Source: Halobellus sp. LT62 (GTDB taxonomy: Archaea; Halobacteriota; Halobacteria; Halobacteriales; Haloferacaceae). From it: 64,000 nt of DNA. The notes under the pieces were generated by a model, which worked only from the letters and a program-made list of their open reading frames with translations, had not been told where the DNA came from and did not search any database. Both the position numbers and the translations under genes were made by a program. The stretch covers positions 558,001 through 622,000 of the forward strand of contig NZ_JAYEZO010000002.1 in assembly GCF_037031285.1 (NCBI RefSeq), written 5' to 3'. This document shows positions 19,423-30,797 of this stretch, piece by piece. Each line of letters starts with the position of its first letter. Position 1 is the stretch's first letter.

Positions 19423-19952
19423 AGATCTACACCGGCCGCGGCGACGAGGGGATGACCGACCTGCGCGATATGTCGCGCGTCTCGAAGACGAGTCCGCGGA
19501 TCGAGGCGTACGGTTCCGTCGACGAGGCGAACACGCTCGTCGGCACCGCTCGCCCGACCGGATACGACGATGTCGACGAGACGCTCGAACGGATTCAGAA
19601 CCACCTGCACATCGTGCAGGCGGACTTCGCGAACCCCGATCCCGACGAGGGCGATCCGGTCGTCACCGCCGATCACGTCGAGGAGTTAGAGGACGCCATC
19701 GACGAGGCCGACGAGGAGCTCGATCCGCTGACATCGTTTATTCTCCCCGGCGGAAGCGAGGCGGGCGCGACGCTGCACCACGCCCGCGCGGTCGTCCGTC
19801 GGGCGGAGCGGCGGGCGGTCGATTTCGCGGCCGACGAGCCCGCGAACGCGGAGGCGATTCGATATCTCAATCGGCTTTCGGACGCCCTGTTCGTACTCGG
19901 ACGACTCGTCAACGCCCGCGACGGCGTCCCCGAGGAGTCGCCGTCGTACTGA
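19419..19952 (+). CDS. Cob(I)alamin adenosyltransferase, PduO type
   Basis: A 177-residue PduO-family enzyme that attaches the adenosyl group of ATP to Co(I) corrinoid. The family motifs are KIYTGRGDEGMTDL near the N-terminus (ATP loop), AYGSVDEANTLVG, and the helical-bundle segments LPGGSEAGATLHHARAV and YLNRLSDALFVLGR. Length and order are standard. It begins within the stop codon of the glutaredoxin gene, suggesting a two-gene operon. Confidence 0.93.
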   Translation: MKIYTGRGDEGMTDLRDMSRVSKTSPRIEAYGSVDEANTLVGTARPTGYDDVDETLERIQNHLHIVQADFANPDPDEGDPVVTADHVEELEDAIDEADEELDPLTSFILPGGSEAGATLHHARAVVRRAERRAVDFAADEPANAEAIRYLNRLSDALFVLGRLVNARDGVPEESPSY

Positions 19953-20036
19953 GCGTTCTCGGTTGTCCCAGTGTCGCGGTCGTCGACGCCCTGAAAAAGA
20001 ACGCTTAAGTCCGGCCACGCGGAACGTTCAGTGCAC

Positions 20037-20111
20037 GGGTCGGTGGTCTAGTCCGGTTATGACGGCTCCTTCACACGGAGCAGGTCGGCGGTTCGAATCC
20101 GCCCCGACCCA
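20037..20111 (+). tRNA. tRNA-Val (anticodon CAC)
   Basis: A full cloverleaf: acceptor stem GGGTCGG (20037-20043) with CCGACCC (20104-20110), anticodon stem GCTCC/GGAGC with loop TTCACAC (anticodon CAC at 20072-20074), T arm GGCGG-TTCGAAT-CCGCC, and discriminator A at 20111. CCA is not encoded. Its last 14 bases are the left attachment site of the integrated element that follows. Confidence 0.97.
20098..20111. repeat. attL: 14-bp core within the tRNA-Val 3' end
   Basis: TCCGCCCCGACCCA, identical to 27421-27434. Integration into the 3' end leaves the tRNA intact, as expected for a tyrosine-integrase element. Confidence 0.8.
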
Positions 20112-20269
20112 TGTTTCTGCGGCGCACCGCGAGGAACGGAAGTCTCGACGTCGACGCGAGGCTCTCGAAGCGAACTTAGGGCAGTACGCGATCACAGATG
20201 GCGGCCAACGGATCGATCACGGTGATTGACAACGGTCGCTGAGCAGTTATTCATTGCCTGCTAACTCAG

Positions 20270-20827
20270 TCAGTTATCGATTGCAACCTCCGCAATAACT
20301 GGAGCGTGGTCGCTCCTGTACGTTCCCTTGCTTCGCATCCCGTTGGGTGAGCCCTTATGACCGTTTCAGATCTCACACTTATTCGCCGTGAAGTGGTCGG
20401 AAACGAGGATGTGATCTAATCGCTTCTTCGACGGGTTACCGTTGTGAACGATGTGTGTATACTCCTCTGTACTCGCCTCGTATGTCTCAGTAGGAGACGC
20501 CAGATACGTATCTCGCATATCCCACTCTCCGACGTCTTGGTCGAAGAGTTGCTTCTCTGCTTTCCGCCACCGCTGTCCGAACGTGTGCTCTACGGTCTCG
20601 TCCGTCTCTTCTTGGAAGTAATACGGGTGGCCATAGGGGATAGTTCGTGTACGCTGATCCACCGTGTGGAACGATTTGGCCATCATATGTCTCTTTCAAC
20701 GGTGCGTTGAAGTCACCTCCCAGAATTACGGGGTGATCCATCTTTTTGCTCTGAAGGTAGATCCGGATCCTCTCAGTTGGATATTTTTCTATCTTACGAG
20801 CAAGAGTATCTCAGTTACAAAATGTTC
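20270..20827 (-). pseudogene. Endonuclease/exonuclease/phosphatase-family protein, broken remnant
   Basis: The minus strand carries the family's motifs in order but in different frames. MDHPVILGGDFNAPL (about 20741-20697) is the metal-binding GDFN motif. A frameshift follows near 20690, then RLDHILVSDHF (about 20410). There is an in-frame TGA at 20366-20368, after which the same frame continues to SDHAPVIAEVAIDN, ending at 20270. The catalytic GDFN and final SDH motifs are thus both preserved, but the gene cannot be expressed whole. The N-terminal half is missing; the remnant abuts the insertion sequence at 20828. Confidence 0.8.
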
Positions 20828-21721
20828 GGCTCTGGTGAATGGCTGTACTGCGGCAGGATAGGTCGTCAAATCAAAAGAAGTGAAGCGGGAAATCCGCGGT
20901 GGTTATGTCGAAGATCTCCCGCTTCACAACGAAAGCGGTCACGTTAGCTAAAAATGTTGTTGGTGGCCGAGGCGAAGTCGCCGCCCCCGAAGGGGGTGGC
21001 GGCTTCGCCGATTACGCTCTTGTATCGCTACACTGTCTACGGATTTACCTCGATGAGTCGTACCGCAATACCCTCGATCTGCTGAGCGAGATGTCGCATA
21101 TTTTGGCCGAGATCGGCCTCGAAGAGGGCGATCTCTCTGACCACTCGACGTTGGTAAAGGCGTTTGATAAGTTCGAGATGAAGGTCTGGCGAGTGCTGCT
21201 GCGCCTGTCGGCGCAGCTGCACGACACCGCCGATCACGCTGCGATGGACGCGACGCTTTTCGACTGTGAAACCGCCAGCAAGCACTACTGCCGCCGGACG
21301 AACTACCGCGTTCAAACGCTGAAAACGACCGCGCTCGTCGATACGAAAACACAAGCTGTGCTCGACGTTCACTGTACGACCGAGAAACGCCACGACACGC
21401 GGATCGGCTGGCAATCTCGCCGCTGACAAAGGCTACGATTGGATGCGATTACGCGAGAAATTGCGCGAAGAAGGCGTGAGACCGCTGATCAAGCACCGCG
21501 AGTTCCGACCCATTGATCGCGCGCATCGATGGGTCTCTGTATGGCCAGAGAGCACTGTCTGAGACCGGCTTCTCGACGATTAAGCGTACGCTCGGCCACG
21601 CGGTGCGTGCCCGAGCGTGGTACCGCGAATTTCGTGAGATCGTCCTGATGTGTGCGGTCTACAACATCAAGCGCGCCGTGAACCAGTGAAATCAAACGCC
21701 ACCTGGCGATTCACCAGAGCC
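20828..21721 (+). mobile_element. IS5-family insertion sequence (decayed), 894 bp
   Basis: Terminal inverted repeats GGCTCTGGTGAAT (20828-20840) and ATTCACCAGAGCC (21709-21721) match perfectly over 13 bases and flank one transposase gene. Size and transposase sequence fit the haloarchaeal IS5-type ISH elements. I see no clear target-site duplication, which suggests an old or rearranged insertion. Confidence 0.8.
20905..21689 (+). pseudogene. IS5-family transposase, frameshifted
   Basis: Starts MSKISRFTTKAV at the ATG at 20905 and reads through FADYALVSLHCLRIYLD and the first catalytic-aspartate region AAMDATLFDC. A frameshift occurs near 21410 (at RIGWQ). The reading continues in a second frame (LAADKGYDWMRLREKL to RPLIKHREFRPID), shifts again near 21520, and ends IDGSLYGQ ... 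CAVYNIKRAVNQ with TGA at 21687-21689. At least two indels and small deletions inactivate it. Confidence 0.85.
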
Positions 21722-21734
21722 CATCAAGCATACG

Positions 21735-21779
21735 GTGAACTCGTGAAATCAAGCTACGTCTGGCGATTCACCACGGCCC
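21735..21779 (+). repeat. Second, solo copy of the insertion-sequence right end
   Basis: This 45-base stretch repeats 21678-21722 imperfectly: both read GTGAAC, a few variable bases, GTGAAATCAA, variable bases, then CTGGCGATTCACCA. It probably marks the end of a related but otherwise lost insertion sequence. Confidence 0.6.
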
Positions 21780-21916
21780 TACATTCCTATCGTCGACGTG
21801 CAGCCACCCAGTTCCTGGAGGGGAGAACGACGCGCTTCCGAGTATTAACATCTTACTGAAGACCTCAGTTCGCTATCGTGATTTATAACAAAGTACGCTG
21901 GAGCAGTTGACGTCCT

Positions 21917-23977
21917 ATGGTCGAATTAGACGAGCCTGTTAAGTCATCGGAGCCGGATCGACTGCAAGCGGGAGGGACAGCGTCTCGGCGACGCGTTCTC
22001 GCGGCCTTCGGTGGTGCAGGTGTCGCACTCGGGATGCCGGGATTGTTCGTTCAGCAGTCCCAGACGATCGAACTCGACGGAGATACAGCGGCGTGGATTG
22101 GTCGTGCGCCGGAGTCGATCGCTGGAACCGAAAACCCCACACTGGAACTGGAAGCCGGCCAAGAGTACGAAATCACGTGGGAGAACGTCGACGGACAGCC
22201 ACACAACATTGCCATTCAGGACAGTGAGGGGGAGAACATCGAGGCTACAGAGACGATAAGCGAACAGGGCGCGACACAGACGTTGTCGTTCACTGCGAGC
22301 AGAGAGATGACCACGTACATCTGTGAAGTTCATCCTACGACGATGGTAGGTGACGTTTCGGTGGGTGGCGGAAACGGGGACCAGACGACACAGGAGGGGG
22401 ACTCGACCGAAGAGCCACCTGACGCCGGTTTCTTCGAGGAGGGGACCGAAATCGGCGTCGAGACGGTCGCGGAGGGGATGACCGCGCCGACGGACTACGC
22501 GATCCCCGGCGACGACAGCGGGCGCCAGTTCGTCGCCGACCAGACGGGGGAGGTGTGGGTCGTCGGCGACGACGGATTGCTGGACGAACCGTTCATCGAC
22601 GTGTCCGACCGTATGGTCACACTCGGCGAGTTCGACGGTTCCTACGCCAATCCCGAATCGATGTACGACGAGCGCGGCCTGCTCGGCGTAGACTTCCACC
22701 CGGAGTTCTCGGACAACGGCAGGTTCTTCCTCCATTACAGTGTGCCGCCGAACGACGAGACGCCGGACGGCTGGGATCACGTCGAGGTCGTCTCGGAGTT
22801 CCAGACGAGCGACGACGGCCAGTCGGCAGATCCGGAGTCCGAGCGCGTCCTCCTGGAGTTCCAGAAACCGCAGTACAACCACAACGGGGGACCGATGGCG
22901 TTCGGGCCGGACGGCTACCTCTACGTGCCGATGGGTGACGGTGGCGGTGCGAACGACGATATGTACGGTCACGTCGAGGACTGGTACGATCGAAACAGCG
23001 GCGGGAACGGCCAGGATGTCACGGAGAACCTGCTCGGTGACATCGTGCGCATCGACGTCGATTCGGAGGGCAATGACACTCCTTACGGGATCCCCGAGGA
23101 CAATCCGTTCGTCGGCACCGAGGGCCGGGACGAGATCTACGCCTACGGGTTCCGCAATCCCTACGGCGTCTCCTTCGACAGCGAAGGGAACCTGTTCGTC
23201 GCTGACGCCGGCCAGAACCTCTTCGAGGAGATCGACGTCGTCGAACGCGGCGGCAACTACGGTTGGAACGTCAAGGAGGGGACGCACTGCTTCAGCACGG
23301 AGAGCTCGAGCGACCCGGACGCGATCACGGATTGCCCGACGAGCGAACCGGACGAGGCGCCGTACACCGGGCAGGAGTTCATCGACCCGGTCGCCGAGTT
23401 CCCTCGCGTGTATCAGGACGAGAGCGTCGGAATCGTGGCGATCGGTGGCCACCGCTACGAGGCGAGTGCCATCCCGGATCTCGAGGGGAAGTACGTCTTC
23501 GGTGCCTGGACGACCGACCCCGCGCGCGACGAACCCGACGGACGCATCCTCGCGGCGACGCCGCCCGAGGACTTCGGTGATGGAGAGATGGACGATCCCC
23601 CGGACGAACTCTGGGAGATGGAGGAACTCGTGGTCAGCGGCGGTCTCGGTTACTTCGTCCGGATGTTCGGTCAGGGAGCGGACGGCGAGGTGTACGTTCT
23701 CGCCAACCAGCGGGGAGTTCCGGAGGGCGACACTGGAGTGCTCCTGGAGATAGTTCCCCCGGAGGAGGAAAACGGTGATACTGAGACGGCGACGGAGGGG
23801 GACACTGCTACGGACACTGAAACCGAGACGGAGGGTACGGACGAAGCGACCGGTACGGACGGCGGGAATGGGACCGAAACAGAAACGCCCGGGTTCGGCG
23901 CCATCACGTCGGCGGTTGCCGTACTCGGCAGCGTGGGACTGATGCTCTGGCGTCGCAATAACAACGAAGACGACTGA
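21917..23977 (+). CDS. Surface-anchored cupredoxin - PQQ-type sugar dehydrogenase fusion
   Basis: A 686-residue secreted protein. Residues 1-48 hold a twin-arginine signal (ASRRRVLAAFGG). Residues 50-150 are a halocyanin/plastocyanin-like domain with a complete type 1 copper set: H96 (QPHN), C136 (YICEVH), H139 and M143. Residues 176-600 form a beta-propeller of the glucose/sorbosone dehydrogenase family, with ERGLLGVDFHPEF and QYNHNGGPMAFGPDG. A Thr/Glu/Asp-rich stalk leads to ETPGFGAITSAVAVLG, a PGF-CTERM anchor processed by archaeosortase A. It probably oxidises sugars outside the cell, passing electrons through its own copper domain. It is intact and GC-rich inside a decayed element. Confidence 0.88.
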   Translation: MVELDEPVKSSEPDRLQAGGTASRRRVLAAFGGAGVALGMPGLFVQQSQTIELDGDTAAWIGRAPESIAGTENPTLELEAGQEYEITWENVDGQPHNIAIQDSEGENIEATETISEQGATQTLSFTASREMTTYICEVHPTTMVGDVSVGGGNGDQTTQEGDSTEEPPDAGFFEEGTEIGVETVAEGMTAPTDYAIPGDDSGRQFVADQTGEVWVVGDDGLLDEPFIDVSDRMVTLGEFDGSYANPESMYDERGLLGVDFHPEFSDNGRFFLHYSVPPNDETPDGWDHVEVVSEFQTSDDGQSADPESERVLLEFQKPQYNHNGGPMAFGPDGYLYVPMGDGGGANDDMYGHVEDWYDRNSGGNGQDVTENLLGDIVRIDVDSEGNDTPYGIPEDNPFVGTEGRDEIYAYGFRNPYGVSFDSEGNLFVADAGQNLFEEIDVVERGGNYGWNVKEGTHCFSTESSSDPDAITDCPTSEPDEAPYTGQEFIDPVAEFPRVYQDESVGIVAIGGHRYEASAIPDLEGKYVFGAWTTDPARDEPDGRILAATPPEDFGDGEMDDPPDELWEMEELVVSGGLGYFVRMFGQGADGEVYVLANQRGVPEGDTGVLLEIVPPEEENGDTETATEGDTATDTETETEGTDEATGTDGGNGTETETPGFGAITSAVAVLGSVGLMLWRRNNNEDD

Positions 23978-24460
23978 CGCTCGAGTCCCCCACCACTGCG
24001 GTTTTGACTTCCCAGCAACCGGGTGTCTACGGGGTGTGCGTATCTGTCCATCGAGCCTCAGTCGCCTCCTTCACCGCCGACGCATTCCGTGCCACTCGCA
24101 ACACCGTCCCGAGTTCGTCGGCGAGGTCGTTCTCACCGGGTCCGACACTTCGAACCTGGTAGCTTCTATGTCCGTGCGTGCATATCGGGTCGTGCATCCC
24201 ATCGGGCGACTGTCGTGACGGAGTTTCCGCAGGATGCTGTAGACGTGTTCGTATGCTTCGTCGACGAGTTCGTTGTTCTCTATAGCTCCTGTGATGGCGT
24301 ACTTGAGGAATGTCATTCCTCCTTCAACGACCGGTGTACCGACGTATTCCGCTGCAGTCTAGTGTTTCACCACAGTCAAATGTTCGTTAACGCTTCAAGG
24401 AAACCACCTCAGTAACGATCGGCGTACCGAACGCAGTCATCAATAGGGCGAATAGAATGA
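23978..24460. other. 483-bp interval without an intact gene
   Basis: Lies between the dehydrogenase fusion and the nuclease unit inside the element. It has lower GC than the flanking genes. It contains one protein-like fragment on the minus strand (24071-24358, listed separately) and no promoter-gene arrangement I can support. Confidence 0.5.
24071..24358 (-). pseudogene. Gene remnant of unknown family
   Basis: A minus-strand frame whose first 45 residues look like real protein (TAAEYVGTPVVEGG, then MTFLKYAITGAIENNELVDE, AYEHVYSILRKLRHDSR) and whose remainder looks like non-coding sequence read through. A stop codon lies directly before the readable part, so the N-terminus is lost. I do not recognise the family. 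The helical, charged character would suit a small regulatory or plasmid protein. Confidence 0.35.
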
Positions 24461-25543
24461 TCAATCACTCCCGAACGTCGCTGCGGGGCCGATAATCATC
24501 GGTTGGCTCATATCAGCTTTGGCGTATTGGATCATCTCCCGATAGTCCACTCGACTGTCTTCGCCATATCGATCACGGCGATAGAAGTCACCAATTATTG
24601 CGACAGGATCTTGGCAGACGACTGGAATAACTTTGTCCTCGGATAGATTCCATTCCGTAGCGAACAGAGTAGCATAGATAGCTGCCTGCCCTAGGCCCTT
24701 TAGAAACGGTCTAGTCGCTCTCTCAGGTGGACCTCGTTTAATTTCCACAACAAACCAGTGGTCGTCAGCCTTCACAAGTAAGTCTGCTCGCCGAGCAGAT
24801 GGTCTCGACGACGAGAGCTGTGAGCCGATCGGAATTTCGCGATACGTACGGAGATCATTAAATCCGAATACATCTGACAGCAACGTACAGAAGTCTTGAG
24901 CAACCGACTCCTCAGCCTCACTCTGGAGCGTTTCACCCGATTCTGTCGCTAACCAAGACTCACAGGATGAAGTGTCTTCAGGCGCGCTCGGCGCAAACAT
25001 ACTTGGCGACAGTGTTCGCCACCGACCAGATTCGAGGTAGTCAACATCAATGCCGAGGTTGTGACACTCCGCAAGGATAGGCGCAGCAGCGGCGTCAAGG
25101 TTACAAACGACGAGTCGTTTGTCGATCCACTTGAGCTCCGGTTTTGGTCGATAGGTCTTCAGTGAATCTCCGTCAGAGTACTGGAAGATGTGAGACTCGA
25201 AACCACTAATCTCTCTCTTCGTCTCCCAGTCGGTACCACGATCGGCGTACCACTTTCGGACAATGTCTCGGTCACGCTTCCTGAGATACGAGTAGATGAG
25301 TAGTTGTCCGATTCCAGTAAATGTGGGAGTGCGCTTACACTCAATGAGTGTTTCCTCAGCACTATCAGAAGCAGACTGAATTCCGTCAGCGCTCATAGCG
25401 AGCGGACCCTGAGAGCCTCTAATTAATGACTTCTCATCCTTCAGGAGACAGTTCCCAATCGGTACTTCACGCAGAACTTGCGTCGTCTGAGCATCTATGT
25501 ATGCTGTACAACACTCTTCTTCGGATCGCGATTGCTTTGTCAT
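24461..25543 (-). CDS. Protein with two tandem PD-(D/E)XK nuclease-like domains
   Basis: A 360-residue protein built as an internal duplication. The first half has REVPIGN (25-31), D53, E68-C-K70 and GIGQLLIYS (Q80). The second half has REIPIGS (235-241), D254, E267-I-K269 and GLGQAAIYA (Q286). Each half thus keeps the Asp, Glu-x-Lys and downstream Gln of the PD-(D/E)XK fold, in the style of RecB/NucS-type nucleases (compare VVEIKRG). A linker of about 130 residues separates them. Its ATG overlaps the stop of the preceding gene (ATGA). Function unknown; DNA cleavage in defence or element maintenance is a reasonable guess. Confidence 0.7.
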   Translation of the reverse strand: MTKQSRSEEECCTAYIDAQTTQVLREVPIGNCLLKDEKSLIRGSQGPLAMSADGIQSASDSAEETLIECKRTPTFTGIGQLLIYSYLRKRDRDIVRKWYADRGTDWETKREISGFESHIFQYSDGDSLKTYRPKPELKWIDKRLVVCNLDAAAAPILAECHNLGIDVDYLESGRWRTLSPSMFAPSAPEDTSSCESWLATESGETLQSEAEESVAQDFCTLLSDVFGFNDLRTYREIPIGSQLSSSRPSARRADLLVKADDHWFVVEIKRGPPERATRPFLKGLGQAAIYATLFATEWNLSEDKVIPVVCQDPVAIIGDFYRRDRYGEDSRVDYREMIQYAKADMSQPMIIGPAATFGSD

Positions 25544-26118
25544 TTCGCTGGCTTCACCTCTTCGTACTTATATGGTGAATAGACGTCCCGTGTCTCCCAG
25601 AGCGGATCAGGTTCTTTCCTTGCTTCCGTCGGTGGTTCATCCGCCACAATCAGTTCTGACCGGGTCGTGCTCTCGGTGCTATTACCCCAGGGAATCATAG
25701 TTTTGGTCGGGAGAGTATATGTGGGTGGTGGCGTCTCCTTGGGGAGGCTCGTTTTGCCCGTTTCAGTCGAATTTCCAGCCGATTCTTCGTAACTAATCGA
25801 AATATCGAGTGTATGTGATCCTTTGGACAGAGGATCTCTCAGAGTCCAGTATTCGATTCCGTATCCTGAGTGGACCTCATCCAGAAGCGGAATTGGCTCG
25901 CCGTCAATGCAAACCGTAAGTTCGCTACGGCGCAGAAGTCGTCGCTGGAATGCCAGAAGCTCACGGGCAGTCGCTGACATATCTTTGTCGAAGGGGGGAT
26001 ATGGTAGGGGTTGCAGCGCACACCAGTACATAATATGAGTGTCGCGAGGAACCGTAATCTGCGTCGGATCCCCCGGCTCTAGCGGGACAGCTACCGGGAC
26101 CACGCCGGTCAAATCCAT
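25540..26118 (-). CDS. Unknown protein coupled to the tandem-nuclease gene
   Basis: A 192-residue soluble protein that I do not recognise. The N-terminal half is beta-rich (MDLTGVVPVAVPLEPGD, then ITVPRDTHIMYWCALQPLP), there is a helical patch (ATARELLAFQRRLLRRSE), another beta-rich stretch (YWTLRDPLSKGSHTLDISIS), and the last 70 residues are Pro/Thr/Glu-rich and probably disordered. I use the ATG at 26118 because a TATA-like CACTATATTAGG lies 28 bases upstream, the standard distance for a leaderless haloarchaeal transcript. It is first in a two-gene operon with the nuclease. Confidence 0.6.
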   Translation of the reverse strand: MDLTGVVPVAVPLEPGDPTQITVPRDTHIMYWCALQPLPYPPFDKDMSATARELLAFQRRLLRRSELTVCIDGEPIPLLDEVHSGYGIEYWTLRDPLSKGSHTLDISISYEESAGNSTETGKTSLPKETPPPTYTLPTKTMIPWGNSTESTTRSELIVADEPPTEARKEPDPLWETRDVYSPYKYEEVKPAK

Positions 26119-26140
26119 ACTTGGAGTCGATGACTTGAGT

Positions 26141-26152
26141 CCTAATATAGTG
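26141..26152 (-). promoter_or_regulatory. TATA-type promoter of the nuclease operon
   Basis: CACTATATTAGG on the minus strand, centred about 28 bases before the ATG at 26118. It supports a leaderless start and a dedicated promoter for the two-gene unit. Confidence 0.5.
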
Positions 26153-26344
26153 TGTGTCACTGGTAGAGGAGTATTCGTACTACGCTCTAATGGTAGCTTC
26201 ACCGAAGCAACTTGCCAAGTATGTAGTCTATTCTATGGCTTCTCCCGAATGTTCTGTGGAGTTTACAAAAAGACGCTATGAGTCTTCTTCAAGTGTTTCT
26301 GGAGGGTCTGACTCCTCACAACTGGCCCACTATTATTGAGTTAT

Positions 26345-27342
26345 TCAGACGTTGTCTAGGTATCCTCTCCGCTGCTCAAGTTTGACCTCTTCTGAACGCT
26401 TGTCGTAGTGCTGGTCAAGCACGTCTCGACTGACATTCATCCGATCACTCACGGCCTCTGCAGGGACGTCCTTCGTCAGGAAGTGGGTGATGCTCCCTCG
26501 TCGAATTGCGTGAGGACCAACTGCCTCCGGACACTTCTTGTCGAAACTGTCGACGCAGTCCGGACAGGGTTCTCCTTGGAAACAAGGTGCGGTCGTGTCG
26601 TAGGTGATTCGGCGGAACGAGTTTCGAGACAGGCGTCCGAACTTACTCGTGACGAGCGGCTTTCGACCTGCGTCGTCGACTTTGTCTTTCCGTGTATTCT
26701 CGATGTACTCATCCAGCAATTCGACGAGGTCCTTGGTGATGGCAATCGGTCTCTCACCGCTTTTGCCGTTTTGAGTGTCGTCCCGTTGTCTGAACGGTGT
26801 ACCAGCTCGATATACCCTTCGTCGAGATGTACGTCCTCCAGATCGATAGAGTGCGCTGCTCCGGTCCTAATTCCCGTCTCCCAGAGCAGGGCGATGATAA
26901 TGTGCCGTCGAGATGCGAAGTGATACTTTTCCAGGTACTGCAGAAGCTCCTGTGCCGTCTCAGCGTCGAGCATATCATCACGCTGGCGCTCTCCGCGACC
27001 GACTTGTGGAACCATTACCTTATCATAGAGATCTGGAGGGACTGCCTCGATAGAAGCCGCCCACTTGAGGAAGACACGCAGCGTACACATATGCTGGCGG
27101 AGCGTGACCTGATTGATGTCGCCGCGGTCCATATGCCAGAGTCGGAACTGGTGGAGATCCCTCCCAGTGAGTTCGTTTAGATTGTCGATGTCGTTCTCGT
27201 CGCACCAGTTGATGATGTGCCTGGTCCGGTAGTCGTGGCTCTGGACTGTTGCTTCGCTACAGTGGGTCGCCTTGTGGTCGAGGTATAGCTCGCGCGCGGT
27301 TCTCGGATCGATGGGTTCGAGTTCATCTCGGTGTGCTGTCAT
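26345..27342 (-). pseudogene. Tyrosine integrase of the element, split by one frameshift
   Basis: A phage/XerC-like integrase of about 330 residues. The first frame runs MTAHRDELEPIDPRTARE through the SAM-like N-terminal domain and the first catalytic arginine (WETGIRTGAAH). Near 26769-26772 a run of four A (minus strand) should be five. With one base restored, the frame continues GERPIAITKDLVELLDEYIE to the HxxR motif (HAIRRGS) and the catalytic tyrosine in LDQHYDKR, ending at 26345. All visible catalytic residues are intact, so this is either a recent inactivation or a sequencing error in a homopolymer. Confidence 0.85.
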
Positions 27343-27420
27343 AAGCACTCACGAGCCCCGTCGAGAGAGCGAGGCATTGCCAAACTCGGGTCGAAGAGAC
27401 CGCAACAGTAGCGTTCTGTG

Positions 27421-27434
27421 TCCGCCCCGACCCA
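27421..27434. repeat. attR: 14-bp direct repeat of the tRNA-Val 3' end
   Basis: TCCGCCCCGACCCA, identical to the tRNA end at 20098-20111. The bases beyond it (CTTTTTGACGGCGCA) resemble those after the tRNA (TGTTTCTGCGGCGCA), consistent with a duplicated target region. Confidence 0.8.
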
Positions 27435-27587
27435 CTTTTTGACGGCGCAACCCGACGAGCGGGGCGTGGCGCGAAGCACCACGGCGGGCGAGCGGCGAAG
27501 GCCGCGAGTCGGCGAGGAGCCTGCGCCGTCGAAGTGGGCACGCGGGGTCGAAGCGGGGAGGTCGCGCGCAGCGGAGCGAGCACGTCC

Positions 27588-27612
27588 GCGGGTCGAATCC
27601 GCCCCGGCCCGT
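27588..27612 (+). repeat. Third, diverged tRNA 3'-end-like fragment
   Basis: GCGGGTCGAATCCGCCCC followed by GGCCCG resembles the tRNA-Val T arm and acceptor 3' strand but lacks the rest of a tRNA. It may be an older attachment site left by an earlier integration at the same locus. Confidence 0.5.
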
Positions 27613-27719
27613 CTCTGATTTCTCGCGACGACGAGCGACAGCTAGGTCTATGGCATCGGGCTCATCGACCTCCGGATCGCCCGAAAATATTGAGTGCCCG
27701 CCAAACTACGATAGCGATC

Positions 27720-28283
27720 GTGGACGTTCTCATCTCCGACCTCCATCTCGATCACGACAACATCATCGAGTACTGCGACCGGCCGTTCGATTCGGTCACA
27801 GCGATGAACGAAGCACTCGTCGAGAACTGGAACGCGACCATCGATCCCGGCGATGAGGTGCTGTACGGTGGCGACCTCACCATCCGCTCGTCAGCCGCCG
27901 CTCTGCTGGATTGGCTTGAGGAACTCAACGGCGAAATCGTCTTTCTGTTGGGAAACCACGACGAGACCGTGCTACCGGAGTTAGCCCACGTCCGGTTCGT
28001 CGAGGAGTTCCGGTTCACGCACCGGGACGTCCCGTTTCACGCCGTGCACGACCCGGCAGACGGCCCCTCGAACCCGTCGGGGTGGCTCCTCCACGGTCAC
28101 CACCACAACAATTGGCCCGCTCAGTTCCCGTTCGTCGACCACGACGAGCGCCGCGTCAATTTCTCGATCGAGCTGCTGGACTACCGGCCGCTGTCGATCG
28201 ACCGCCTCGTAGACTACCTCGCTTGCGGTGAGCGGTTTCCCGACCGAACTACCGCTGAGGACGTTCTGGGACGCCGAGAGTGA
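27720..28283 (+). CDS. Metallophosphoesterase (calcineurin-like)
   Basis: A 187-residue binuclear-metal phosphoesterase with all signature blocks: SDLHLDHDN at the N-terminus, GGDLTI, GNHDE and HGHHHN. I use the GTG at 27720, which puts the first metal motif at residue 6 as in relatives; a TATA-like AAAATATT lies about 30 bases before it, fitting a leaderless transcript. Related small enzymes hydrolyse phosphodiesters or nucleotides; the substrate is not evident. It is the first chromosomal gene after the element. Confidence 0.88.
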   Translation: MDVLISDLHLDHDNIIEYCDRPFDSVTAMNEALVENWNATIDPGDEVLYGGDLTIRSSAAALLDWLEELNGEIVFLLGNHDETVLPELAHVRFVEEFRFTHRDVPFHAVHDPADGPSNPSGWLLHGHHHNNWPAQFPFVDHDERRVNFSIELLDYRPLSIDRLVDYLACGERFPDRTTAEDVLGRRE

Positions 28284-28415
28284 TCACGGGTTCCAAGTAG
28301 CGGATTCCGGGGGTGCGAATTCGACCGTGACGTCTGTCGACTCCCGACGTTTCCGTCCGTATCGTTTATCAAACCACCGACCGATTAGTCGGTAACCGAA
28401 TCCGGTCCCCTCGAG

Positions 28416-29243
28416 ATGACTACAAACCCGAATCGAGACCACCCGCTGATGGCGTTCGACGAGGTCGAGGTCAGCGAGTATATGACGACCGATGTCGACA
28501 CCGTCAGTCCGGGGGCGTGGGTGACCGACGTGGTGGATCAATTGAAAAGCGGCTCGCGGTACAGCGGACTCCCGGTCGTCGACGCGGACGGGCACCTCCT
28601 CGGATTCGTCGGCGCGATCGACCTCCTCGAAGTGAACGGCGACGAGCTCGTCGAGGAGGTGATGACGCGCGAACTCATCGTGGTCCGCCCGGAGATGACC
28701 GTCAAAAACGCCGCGCGCGTCATCTTCCGCACGGGACATCAGTTCCTGCCCGTCGTCGACGACGAGCGCAGGCTCTTGGGGATCTTCTCGAACGGCGACG
28801 CCGTCAGGAGTCAGATCGAACGGACGACGCCGACAAAGGTACAGAGCACTCGCGAGATGCTCGAACGGCGCTACGACACCGCCGTCGATGTGACCGAACG
28901 GGAGGTCGCCGTCTCCGAGTTGATCCCGACTCAGCGCGAGGTGTACGCCGACGAGCTTGAGGGGCGGACGTACGAGCTCGAACACGACCTCGCGGAGCCG
29001 CTCATCGTCGTGTCGTACGGTTCCGAAACCTACCTCGTCGACGGACACCACCGCGCACTCGCGGCCCGAAGCCTGGGTATCGACCGCGCGCTCGCCTACG
29101 TGCTCTCGGTCTCGCCGGACGACGTCGAGGAACTGGGGTTCGCGACGGTCGCTCGCCGAGGTGGGCTGCGCTCGCTCGAGGACGTCGCGGTCAACGACTA
29201 CGTGCACCACCCGCTCATCGAGAAGACAGAACCGGATCTGTAA
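28416..29243 (+). CDS. CBS-domain pair fused to a ParB/Srx-like domain
   Basis: A 275-residue protein. Residues 12-130 form a Bateman module of two CBS repeats (GSRYSGLPVVDADGHLLGFV and TGHQFLPVVDDERRLLGIF), which usually bind adenine nucleotides. Residues 145-235 form a ParB-N/sulfiredoxin-like fold (EVAVSELIPTQREVYADEL, YLVDGHHRALAARSLG); the DGHHR segment corresponds to the nucleotide-binding GxxR/H motif of ParB CTPases. Such fusions suggest a nucleotide-regulated ATP/CTP-dependent activity. No partner gene is visible, and a plasmid-partition role is unlikely. Confidence 0.82.
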   Translation: MTTNPNRDHPLMAFDEVEVSEYMTTDVDTVSPGAWVTDVVDQLKSGSRYSGLPVVDADGHLLGFVGAIDLLEVNGDELVEEVMTRELIVVRPEMTVKNAARVIFRTGHQFLPVVDDERRLLGIFSNGDAVRSQIERTTPTKVQSTREMLERRYDTAVDVTEREVAVSELIPTQREVYADELEGRTYELEHDLAEPLIVVSYGSETYLVDGHHRALAARSLGIDRALAYVLSVSPDDVEELGFATVARRGGLRSLEDVAVNDYVHHPLIEKTEPDL

Positions 29244-29257
29244 GCGGGACTGCCGCC

Positions 29258-30403
29258 TCAGAACAGCCGTTCCGTGGCGACTTCCGCGCCGTCGACGACC
29301 GCCTCCAGCTTCGCCCACGCGATCTCGGGGTGAACCATCGCCATTCCGGCCTGCGTGTCGAAGCCGCAGTCGGGTGCGGCGACGATCCGGCTCGGGTCGC
29401 CGACGGCGTCGGCGACGCGCTCGATGCGGTCGGCGACGACCTCGGGGTGCTCGACGACGTTCGTCTTCACGTCGACGACGCCCGGGATGAGCGTCCAGTC
29501 CTCGGGCAGCGGGTGCTCGCGGAAGACGCGGTACTCGTGTTGGTGTCGCGGGTTCGCCTCCTCGATCGAGAGCCCGCCGATGTTCAGGTCATAGAGGATC
29601 GGAATGATCTCTTCGAGCGGCTTGTCGCGGTGGTGCGGCCCCTCGTAGCTCCCCCAACAGGTGTGGACGCGGATCTGCTCGTCGGGGATGTCCTTCGTCG
29701 CCTCGTTGAGCGCGTCGACGTGCATTCGGACGATCGGTTTGAGCTTCTCGATCGGGCGGTCGCCGAAGCCGCGGTGGCCGGTCGTCAGCAGGTCCGGCGC
29801 GTCGAGCTGGAGCGTCGCGCCCGTCTCGGCGATGAGCTCGTATTCCTTCTTCAGCGCCTCGCCGACGACCGAGAGGAACTCCTCGTGGGAGTCGTAGTAG
29901 TCGTTGACGAGCGTCGCCCCGGCGATGCCGGGAGAGGCCGCGGTGATGAACGTTCCCTCGAAGTCGTGCCCGCTCGCTTCGAGCAGCTCGAAGAACGTCT
30001 CGATCTCCTCGCGGGCGGCGTCCTCGCCGACGTATTCGACGGGTCCCGTGACCGACGGCTGTTTGGTCAGGTCGATTCCTTCGGCGTGGAACGCGTCCTC
30101 GGCGTACTCGGGGTAGTCCGCCAGATCGTCCCACAGCGGGGCGTCTCGCGTGTCTCCGATACCCGAGAGACGATTGGCGACGTACCAGTTAAAGGAGACG
30201 CGCGGCTGTTCGCCGTTGTTGATGATATCGAGGCCGATGTCCGCCTGCCGCTGGATGACGGTCTCGGTCGCGTCGACGACGGCGTCGTGCCACTCGCCCT
30301 CGTCGACCTCCTCGCCGTCCTGTCGGCGCGTCAGGAGTTCGAGCAGTTCCGGCGTTCGTGGGAGACTTCCGATGTGTGTCGTCTGGATGCGGTCGCGAGT
30401 CAT
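29258..30403 (-). CDS. Cobalamin-independent methionine synthase (MetE C-terminal type)
   Basis: A 381-residue single-barrel MetE-like protein that transfers a methyl group to homocysteine. The zinc ligands are visible: His and Cys in RVHTCWG, Glu in SIEEANP and Cys in APDCGFDT. The N-terminal motif is TTHIGSLPRTPELLE. Archaeal enzymes of this length use a corrinoid or other methyl donor instead of polyglutamyl folate. It starts at the ATG at 30403 with a TATA-like ATATTAATG 27-33 bases upstream, so it is probably leaderless. It converges with the CBS-ParB gene. Confidence 0.9.
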   Translation of the reverse strand: MTRDRIQTTHIGSLPRTPELLELLTRRQDGEEVDEGEWHDAVVDATETVIQRQADIGLDIINNGEQPRVSFNWYVANRLSGIGDTRDAPLWDDLADYPEYAEDAFHAEGIDLTKQPSVTGPVEYVGEDAAREEIETFFELLEASGHDFEGTFITAASPGIAGATLVNDYYDSHEEFLSVVGEALKKEYELIAETGATLQLDAPDLLTTGHRGFGDRPIEKLKPIVRMHVDALNEATKDIPDEQIRVHTCWGSYEGPHHRDKPLEEIIPILYDLNIGGLSIEEANPRHQHEYRVFREHPLPEDWTLIPGVVDVKTNVVEHPEVVADRIERVADAVGDPSRIVAAPDCGFDTQAGMAMVHPEIAWAKLEAVVDGAEVATERLF

Positions 30404-30416
30404 TCGGTACTCGAAG

Positions 30417-30447
30417 CAACCACGTGGCCATTAATATGACTTGTGGT
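30417..30447. promoter_or_regulatory. Inverted repeat around the methionine synthase TATA box
   Basis: AACCAC (30417-30422) and GTGGTT (30442-30447) flank the TATA-like ATATTAATG of the methionine synthase gene. The symmetry around the box suggests a repressor site that would block TBP binding. Confidence 0.4.
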
Positions 30448-30575
30448 TACTATCTGTACAATAAATATGTCCATAAGTTATCTTACGATCGGGTTCGAGT
30501 GCATAATACCGGCTTACTCCGGATTCAGCGGGTTGGCTGCGTATAACTAATCCGCCCGCTCCCCTCCAGAGTGGT

Positions 30576-30797
30576 ATGCTGCTCAACACAGCCTCGCTCG
30601 TTCCGACGCCGACTTCGCTTACGTCCGTCCCGCTCCAGTTCTCCGGTGAGTTCTTAGAGTGGGCGATCGTGTTCTTTCTGATCGCCATCGTCGCCGCCGT
30701 CGTCGGTGCTCGCGGCGTCGCCGGCGTGACGATGACCGTCGCGAAGTGGTTCGTAATTATCTTTCTCATCCTCGCGGTCGTTTCGATTCTGTTGTGA
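30576..30797 (+). CDS. Small DUF1328-type membrane protein
   Basis: A 73-residue protein with two membrane helices (about 28-46 and 52-72) and the family-like segments FLEWAIVFFLIAIVAAVVG and GVAGVTMTVAKWFVIIF. DUF1328/UPF0391 proteins are widespread and uncharacterised. An A/T-rich promoter region (30425-30560) is shared with the divergent methionine synthase gene. Confidence 0.82.
   Translation: MLLNTASLVPTPTSLTSVPLQFSGEFLEWAIVFFLIAIVAAVVGARGVAGVTMTVAKWFVIIFLILAVVSILL

Follow-up and report, generated by a model that had tools for sequence, protein, structure and literature searches.

The window analysed here is a stretch of 64,000 nucleotides from Halobellus sp. LT62, and the genes under study form a two-gene unit on its minus strand. 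A gene at 24461..25543 (minus strand) encodes a candidate tandem PD-(D/E)XK nuclease of 360 aa, here called nuclease A, and a gene at 25540..26118 (minus strand) encodes a protein of 192 aa, here called the partner, whose start is supported by homologues at two other loci (L038 and L039). Gene models were obtained with a simple gene caller of our own, and both coordinates and lengths agreed with the initial annotation, which had proposed a two-ORF unit with an ATGA overlap. This overlap, read from the sequence, joins the partner stop to the nuclease A start at 25540..25543 (minus strand) and suggests that the two genes are translationally coupled. A TATA-like box, TATATTA at 26149-26143 (minus strand), likewise read directly, is centred 28 nt upstream of the partner ATG, a position that fits a leaderless transcript.

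The pair is cargo of a decayed integrative element of approximately 7.3 kb and is thus tRNA-borne, as the initial annotation had proposed. A tRNA-Val(CAC) gene was located by ARAGORN at 20037..20111 (plus strand), and its 3' end (20098-20111, plus strand) forms the first attachment site, the 14-bp repeat TCCGCCCCGACCCA. The second site is an exact copy of this repeat at 27421..27434 (plus strand), so that the two copies flank the element. It adjoins the start of a tyrosine integrase (26345..27348, minus strand) that a frameshift has split into pieces in different frames, 26476-27348 and 26345-26719. Other contents include transposase remnants and a sugar dehydrogenase gene, and the GC content is about 0.51 in the stretch carrying the pair versus about 0.66 in the flanks. 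A degenerate further copy of the tRNA-Val 3' end (27578..27610, plus strand, 88%) is likely the remnant of an older integration.

Four congeners were examined at the corresponding place. In three of them, the same tRNA-Val is followed by a metE-like gene (29258-30403 in the window) without the nuclease region, and one of the three carries several tRNA 3'-end fragments. In the fourth (L077), the window metE was not matched and a stretch resembling window positions 27326-27431 was; a related element may occupy that place. Based on the copies of the tRNA-Val 3' end and the comparison of congeners, the site is an integration hot spot. The sugar dehydrogenase gene inside the element (21917-23977) is of the glucose/sorbosone type; its product has a cupredoxin domain at the N terminus and may carry a PGF-CTERM anchor.

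Nuclease A carries two sets of catalytic residues. The N-terminal half (residues 8-100 approximately; 25244..25522, minus strand) has D53, E68, K70, Q80 and Y84, and the C-terminal half (residues 206-312; 24608..24928, minus strand) has D254, E267, K269, Q286 and Y290, with Y84 and Y290 completing a RecB-like QxxxY in their respective halves. All of these residues are invariant in six intact nuclease A homologues, which are 33-70% identical and share 49 invariant columns out of about 347 (approximately 14%). Because the catalytic residues are invariant though few columns are, both sites look functional. The initial annotation had described a full site and a PIG motif in each half. The D/E-x-K/Q sets were as stated, but the PIG motif is well conserved in the C-terminal half only (PIG or PVG); the N-terminal half of the other members has PTG, VVG, TVG or KVA.

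The six-member alignment was then split in two and the halves compared profile to profile. They matched each other with a probability of 92% and an E-value of 6.8e-7, compared to a best of 1.3% and an E-value of 0.04 in 30 column shuffles. The alignment placed D53 on D254, E68 on E267, K70 on K269, Q80 on Q286 and Y84 on Y290. By this comparison the halves are homologous and look like the product of an internal duplication. In an AlphaFold2 model built from four sequences, the C-terminal half formed an alpha-beta-beta-beta-alpha-beta core (pLDDT mostly 80-86); strand 2 carries D254, and strand 3 carries E267 and K269. The N-terminal half of the same model had a pLDDT of about 30 and no fold was obtained, and a Foldseek search with the whole model returned no match at E <= 0.001. 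The predicted PD-(D/E)XK core was therefore found in the model for the C-terminal half, which is further identified by Cas4 matches and residue invariance, but not for the N-terminal half, whose assignment as a PD-(D/E)XK half would follow from its homology to the C-terminal half together with the invariance of its own residues.

The nearest profiles to the C-terminal half were those of Cas4 (PADLOC, E 7e-5; NCBIfam, E 2.7e-4), and the Cas4-like PDB structure 4ic1 also matched (E 0.007); the D...ExK...QxxxY arrangement is shared by Cas4 and nuclease A. However, nuclease A scored 20.8 bits versus the NCBIfam cut-off of 65, its six-member alignment contains no invariant cysteine versus the four Fe-S cysteines of Cas4, and each chain has two nuclease halves. 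Membership in Cas4 was rejected based on the score and the lack of conserved cysteines. No CRISPR array was seen in a repeat search of 19900-30600. Other signals from the superfamily were weak: PDDEXK_1 in three of the six members and HSDR_N_2, all below cut-off, and among XisH and HSDR_N-type families, XisH at 0.002 and HSDR_N_2 at 0.0009 in some members, these being below curated cut-offs or confined to a single member. The partner had no XisI match.

Two known groups of single-chain enzymes invite comparison. Type IIT restriction enzymes such as Mva1269I and BsrI contain two different catalytic sites and generally cut both strands per binding event (PMC4081073). Nuclease A would resemble them, judging by its residues, in having two catalytic sites in one chain; their origin is described as the fusion of ancestral heterodimers and their recognition as sequence-specific, whereas nuclease A looks internally duplicated. 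Gene models of the window and of the homologous loci showed no methyltransferase beside the pair. Can1 is a defence protein with two nuclease-like PD-(D/E)XK domains in a single chain, plus two CARF domains, and one of its nuclease-like domains is without active-site residues (PMC6981274). In contrast, nuclease A has both sites intact and showed no CARF domain. Among PADLOC systems none matched the pair, with only the weak Cas4 matches for the nuclease and none for the partner, and our literature search found no paper on the pair or on DUF5787, a family considered below.

Nuclease A is rare. It was detected in four of 392 haloarchaeal genomes sampled across the order, a count that includes the window's own genome and a degenerate copy, and in two of 125 genomes of one family. 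Four records among GTDB contigs and six among plasmids also matched. Peptide patterns, by which relatives can be missed, were used to scan GTDB and the viral sequences. Such patterns revealed no relatives of either protein in IMG/VR, and a search of INPHARED with the partner revealed none of the partner, and a viral origin of the pair was rejected on these results. The degenerate copy (L042) is a seventh, distant relative, 22% identical, in which the catalytic lysine is gone from both halves (K to S and K to R). It adjoins, at L042 4047-7405 (G049), a CHAT-like (caspase-type) protein of 743 aa that has relatives on 25 haloarchaeal plasmids, and could possibly be a pseudo-nuclease adaptor of the protease.

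Several observations concern individual copies. On pNRC100 of Halobacterium salinarum NRC-1 (L049 7678-8358), ISH8C truncates nuclease A after the N-terminal half; the gene is intact on PHS1 of strain R1. Plasmids CP040680.1 and CP046867.1 (L043 and L044; 316071 and 316107 bp) give the same nuclease match and were deposited under two genera, as Halostella pelagica and Salinibaculum litoreum; the plasmid may have been transferred recently, or the records mixed up. In Natrinema versiforme, nuclease A is intact and no partner was detected in the genome, which is 99% complete. This partnerless nuclease (L041 6770-8745) lies just upstream of a corrinoid adenosyltransferase gene; a corrinoid adenosyltransferase gene also precedes tRNA-Val in the window, by coincidence or as a common insertion neighbourhood.

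The partner had no family match in Pfam, PHROGs, NCBIfam, PADLOC or PDB. It was present in 13 of the 392 haloarchaeal genomes and is thus commoner than nuclease A; 20 loci, which are a sample, were compared. The partner may be beta-rich, as the initial annotation had it, according to a low-confidence model from three sequences (pLDDT 46). Fold matches to this model were discarded as the model was too poor. The window partner falls in a deep clade with two other members, both without a nuclease neighbour, and is 24-25% identical to the partners of a clade formed by CP040679, PHS1 and G429. Exchange of partners, or else rapid divergence, may account for the window pair.

As shown by comparison of the loci, five of the six intact nuclease A genes have a partner homologue 0-727 bp away, in four orientations, in keeping with the initial annotation, which had expected the two genes to occur together; the carriers beyond the window are Halostella plasmids, a Halobacterium plasmid and a fourth genome (G429). 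The genes are ATGA-coupled in the window and divergent on Halostella CP040680; on CP040679 they share a strand in the downstream arrangement, on H. salinarum PHS1 they share a strand in the upstream arrangement, 727 bp apart, and in G429 they are convergent at 494 bp. On PHS1 the partner is disrupted by an IS and nuclease A is intact; an intact partner is found on PHS2.

CP040679 (HsP1), PHS1 and G429 group together as a clade whether the tree is built on the nuclease or on the partner, yet order and strand differ in each, so these genes remained neighbours while their arrangement changed. Partners occupy about 17 places in 391 genomes, from which we calculated that any one nuclease has a chance of about 1e-5 to 1e-4 of lying within 1 kb of one. 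If the three kin pairs are treated as a single case, three independent cases remain. The proximity is far above chance, and we therefore take nuclease A and the partner to be a functional pair.

Nuclease A is the commonest neighbour of the partner (five of the 20 loci) and is accompanied by others. Three loci (L028, L030 and L050) encode an HsdR_N-type protein at a distance of 30-140 bp from the partner. On H. salinarum PHS2 (L051 5165-6256), the partner is divergent from a second tandem PD-(D/E)XK protein of 363 aa, family B, with the motifs ID..GIEIK..QVEEY and ADLVV..GVEVK..DQLPLY, which are conserved in a relative from Natrialba magadii. The family B halves matched each other (E 7e-5) and showed no match or detectable relation to family A, that of nuclease A; the two families were therefore treated as independent duplications. 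The C-terminal half of family B had weak matches to DUF5787 and sce7726. Its association with the partner is a single case, and the Natrialba magadii copy has no annotated adjoining partner. In G390, the nearest large gene, 721 bp from the partner, encodes a DUF4011/MTES_1575 protein, which is the PADLOC defence candidate PDC-S37.

Five partner loci adjoin small zinc-finger genes, instead of or besides nucleases, of two kinds in three loci each. At L031 6814-7107, L034 6503-6799 and L073 7436-7726, a gene for a zinc-ribbon protein (about 97 aa) runs 13-15 nt into the start of the partner gene, and a C2H2 protein of 69 aa is encoded upstream of the partner in L032, L033 and L034, the last having both kinds. 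At approximately half of the partner loci no neighbour resembles a nuclease, and the main job of the partner may be other than pairing with nucleases.

We weighed three other accounts of the pair. The genes could be a toxin and its antidote: host DNA would be damaged by the nuclease whenever the partner was not there to neutralise it, an arrangement that keeps the element or plasmid in the population. The overlapping two-gene unit in the window, the small partner without enzyme motifs and the location on elements and plasmids all agree with such addiction, and orphan partners are common and orphan nucleases rare, as an inhibitor would predict. Nevertheless, the genes vary in order and strand where most antitoxin operons do not, and the partnerless Natrinema nuclease and the IS-disrupted PHS1 partner disfavour the strict form, even if the intact PHS2 partner could act in trans. 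We therefore consider this account unlikely, and element maintenance, one of the two roles offered by the initial annotation, is weakened as far as it means an obligate toxin and antidote.

Alternatively, a Cas4/RecB-like exonuclease might trim DNA ends while the element integrates, replicates or recombines, and the partner would serve as its loading factor. The Cas4-like profiles and the location on integrative elements and megaplasmids would suit this role. It is made quite improbable by the lack of a link to one integrase or replication type across loci, by the occurrence of the nuclease in just four of the haloarchaeal genomes sampled, and by its absence from viral contigs and phages as far as searched. 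We give slightly less credence still to the two genes being independent passengers in a cargo hot spot, brought together by island traffic with no joint function. Most partner loci are indeed without nuclease A, and the other two members of the window partner's clade have no nuclease neighbour; against this, in five of six cases the nuclease and a partner are at most 0.73 kb apart, with four orientations among them, and the three kin pairs stayed together through rearrangement.

Nuclease A thus has a tandem architecture with conserved catalytic sets, recurs near the partner and resides on mobile DNA. We favour, with a probability of roughly 0.55, its interpretation as a single-chain pseudodimeric DNase with a small, exchangeable regulating or targeting partner, probably serving in defence. 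By analogy with the single-chain Type IIT enzymes, two intact sites in one chain would point to a double-strand cut in one binding event, with DNA as the presumed substrate. The partner would most likely bind nuclease A and so activate, restrain or direct it, and the pair, which travels as compact cargo of integrative elements and megaplasmids, would most likely attack invading DNA. Defence is favoured as the purpose because, on mobile DNA, members of the partner family are found alongside nucleases of restriction type and beside a defence candidate. A broader proposal, which we regard as possible though doubtful, is that the partner serves haloarchaea as a general adaptor, activating or recruiting several unrelated PD-(D/E)XK nucleases, families A and B being independent pseudodimers, in a modular defence with a constant small subunit and exchangeable cutters.

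Among restriction enzymes, a few are known that combine two catalytic sites in a single chain. An internally duplicated archaeal nuclease of the Cas4/RecB type with a conserved small partner would be a compact case for studying the control of such enzymes, and the homologues in Halobacterium salinarum R1 make direct testing possible. If the partner serves several unrelated nucleases, it would mark an unrecognised component of haloarchaeal defence that may be used to find more systems.
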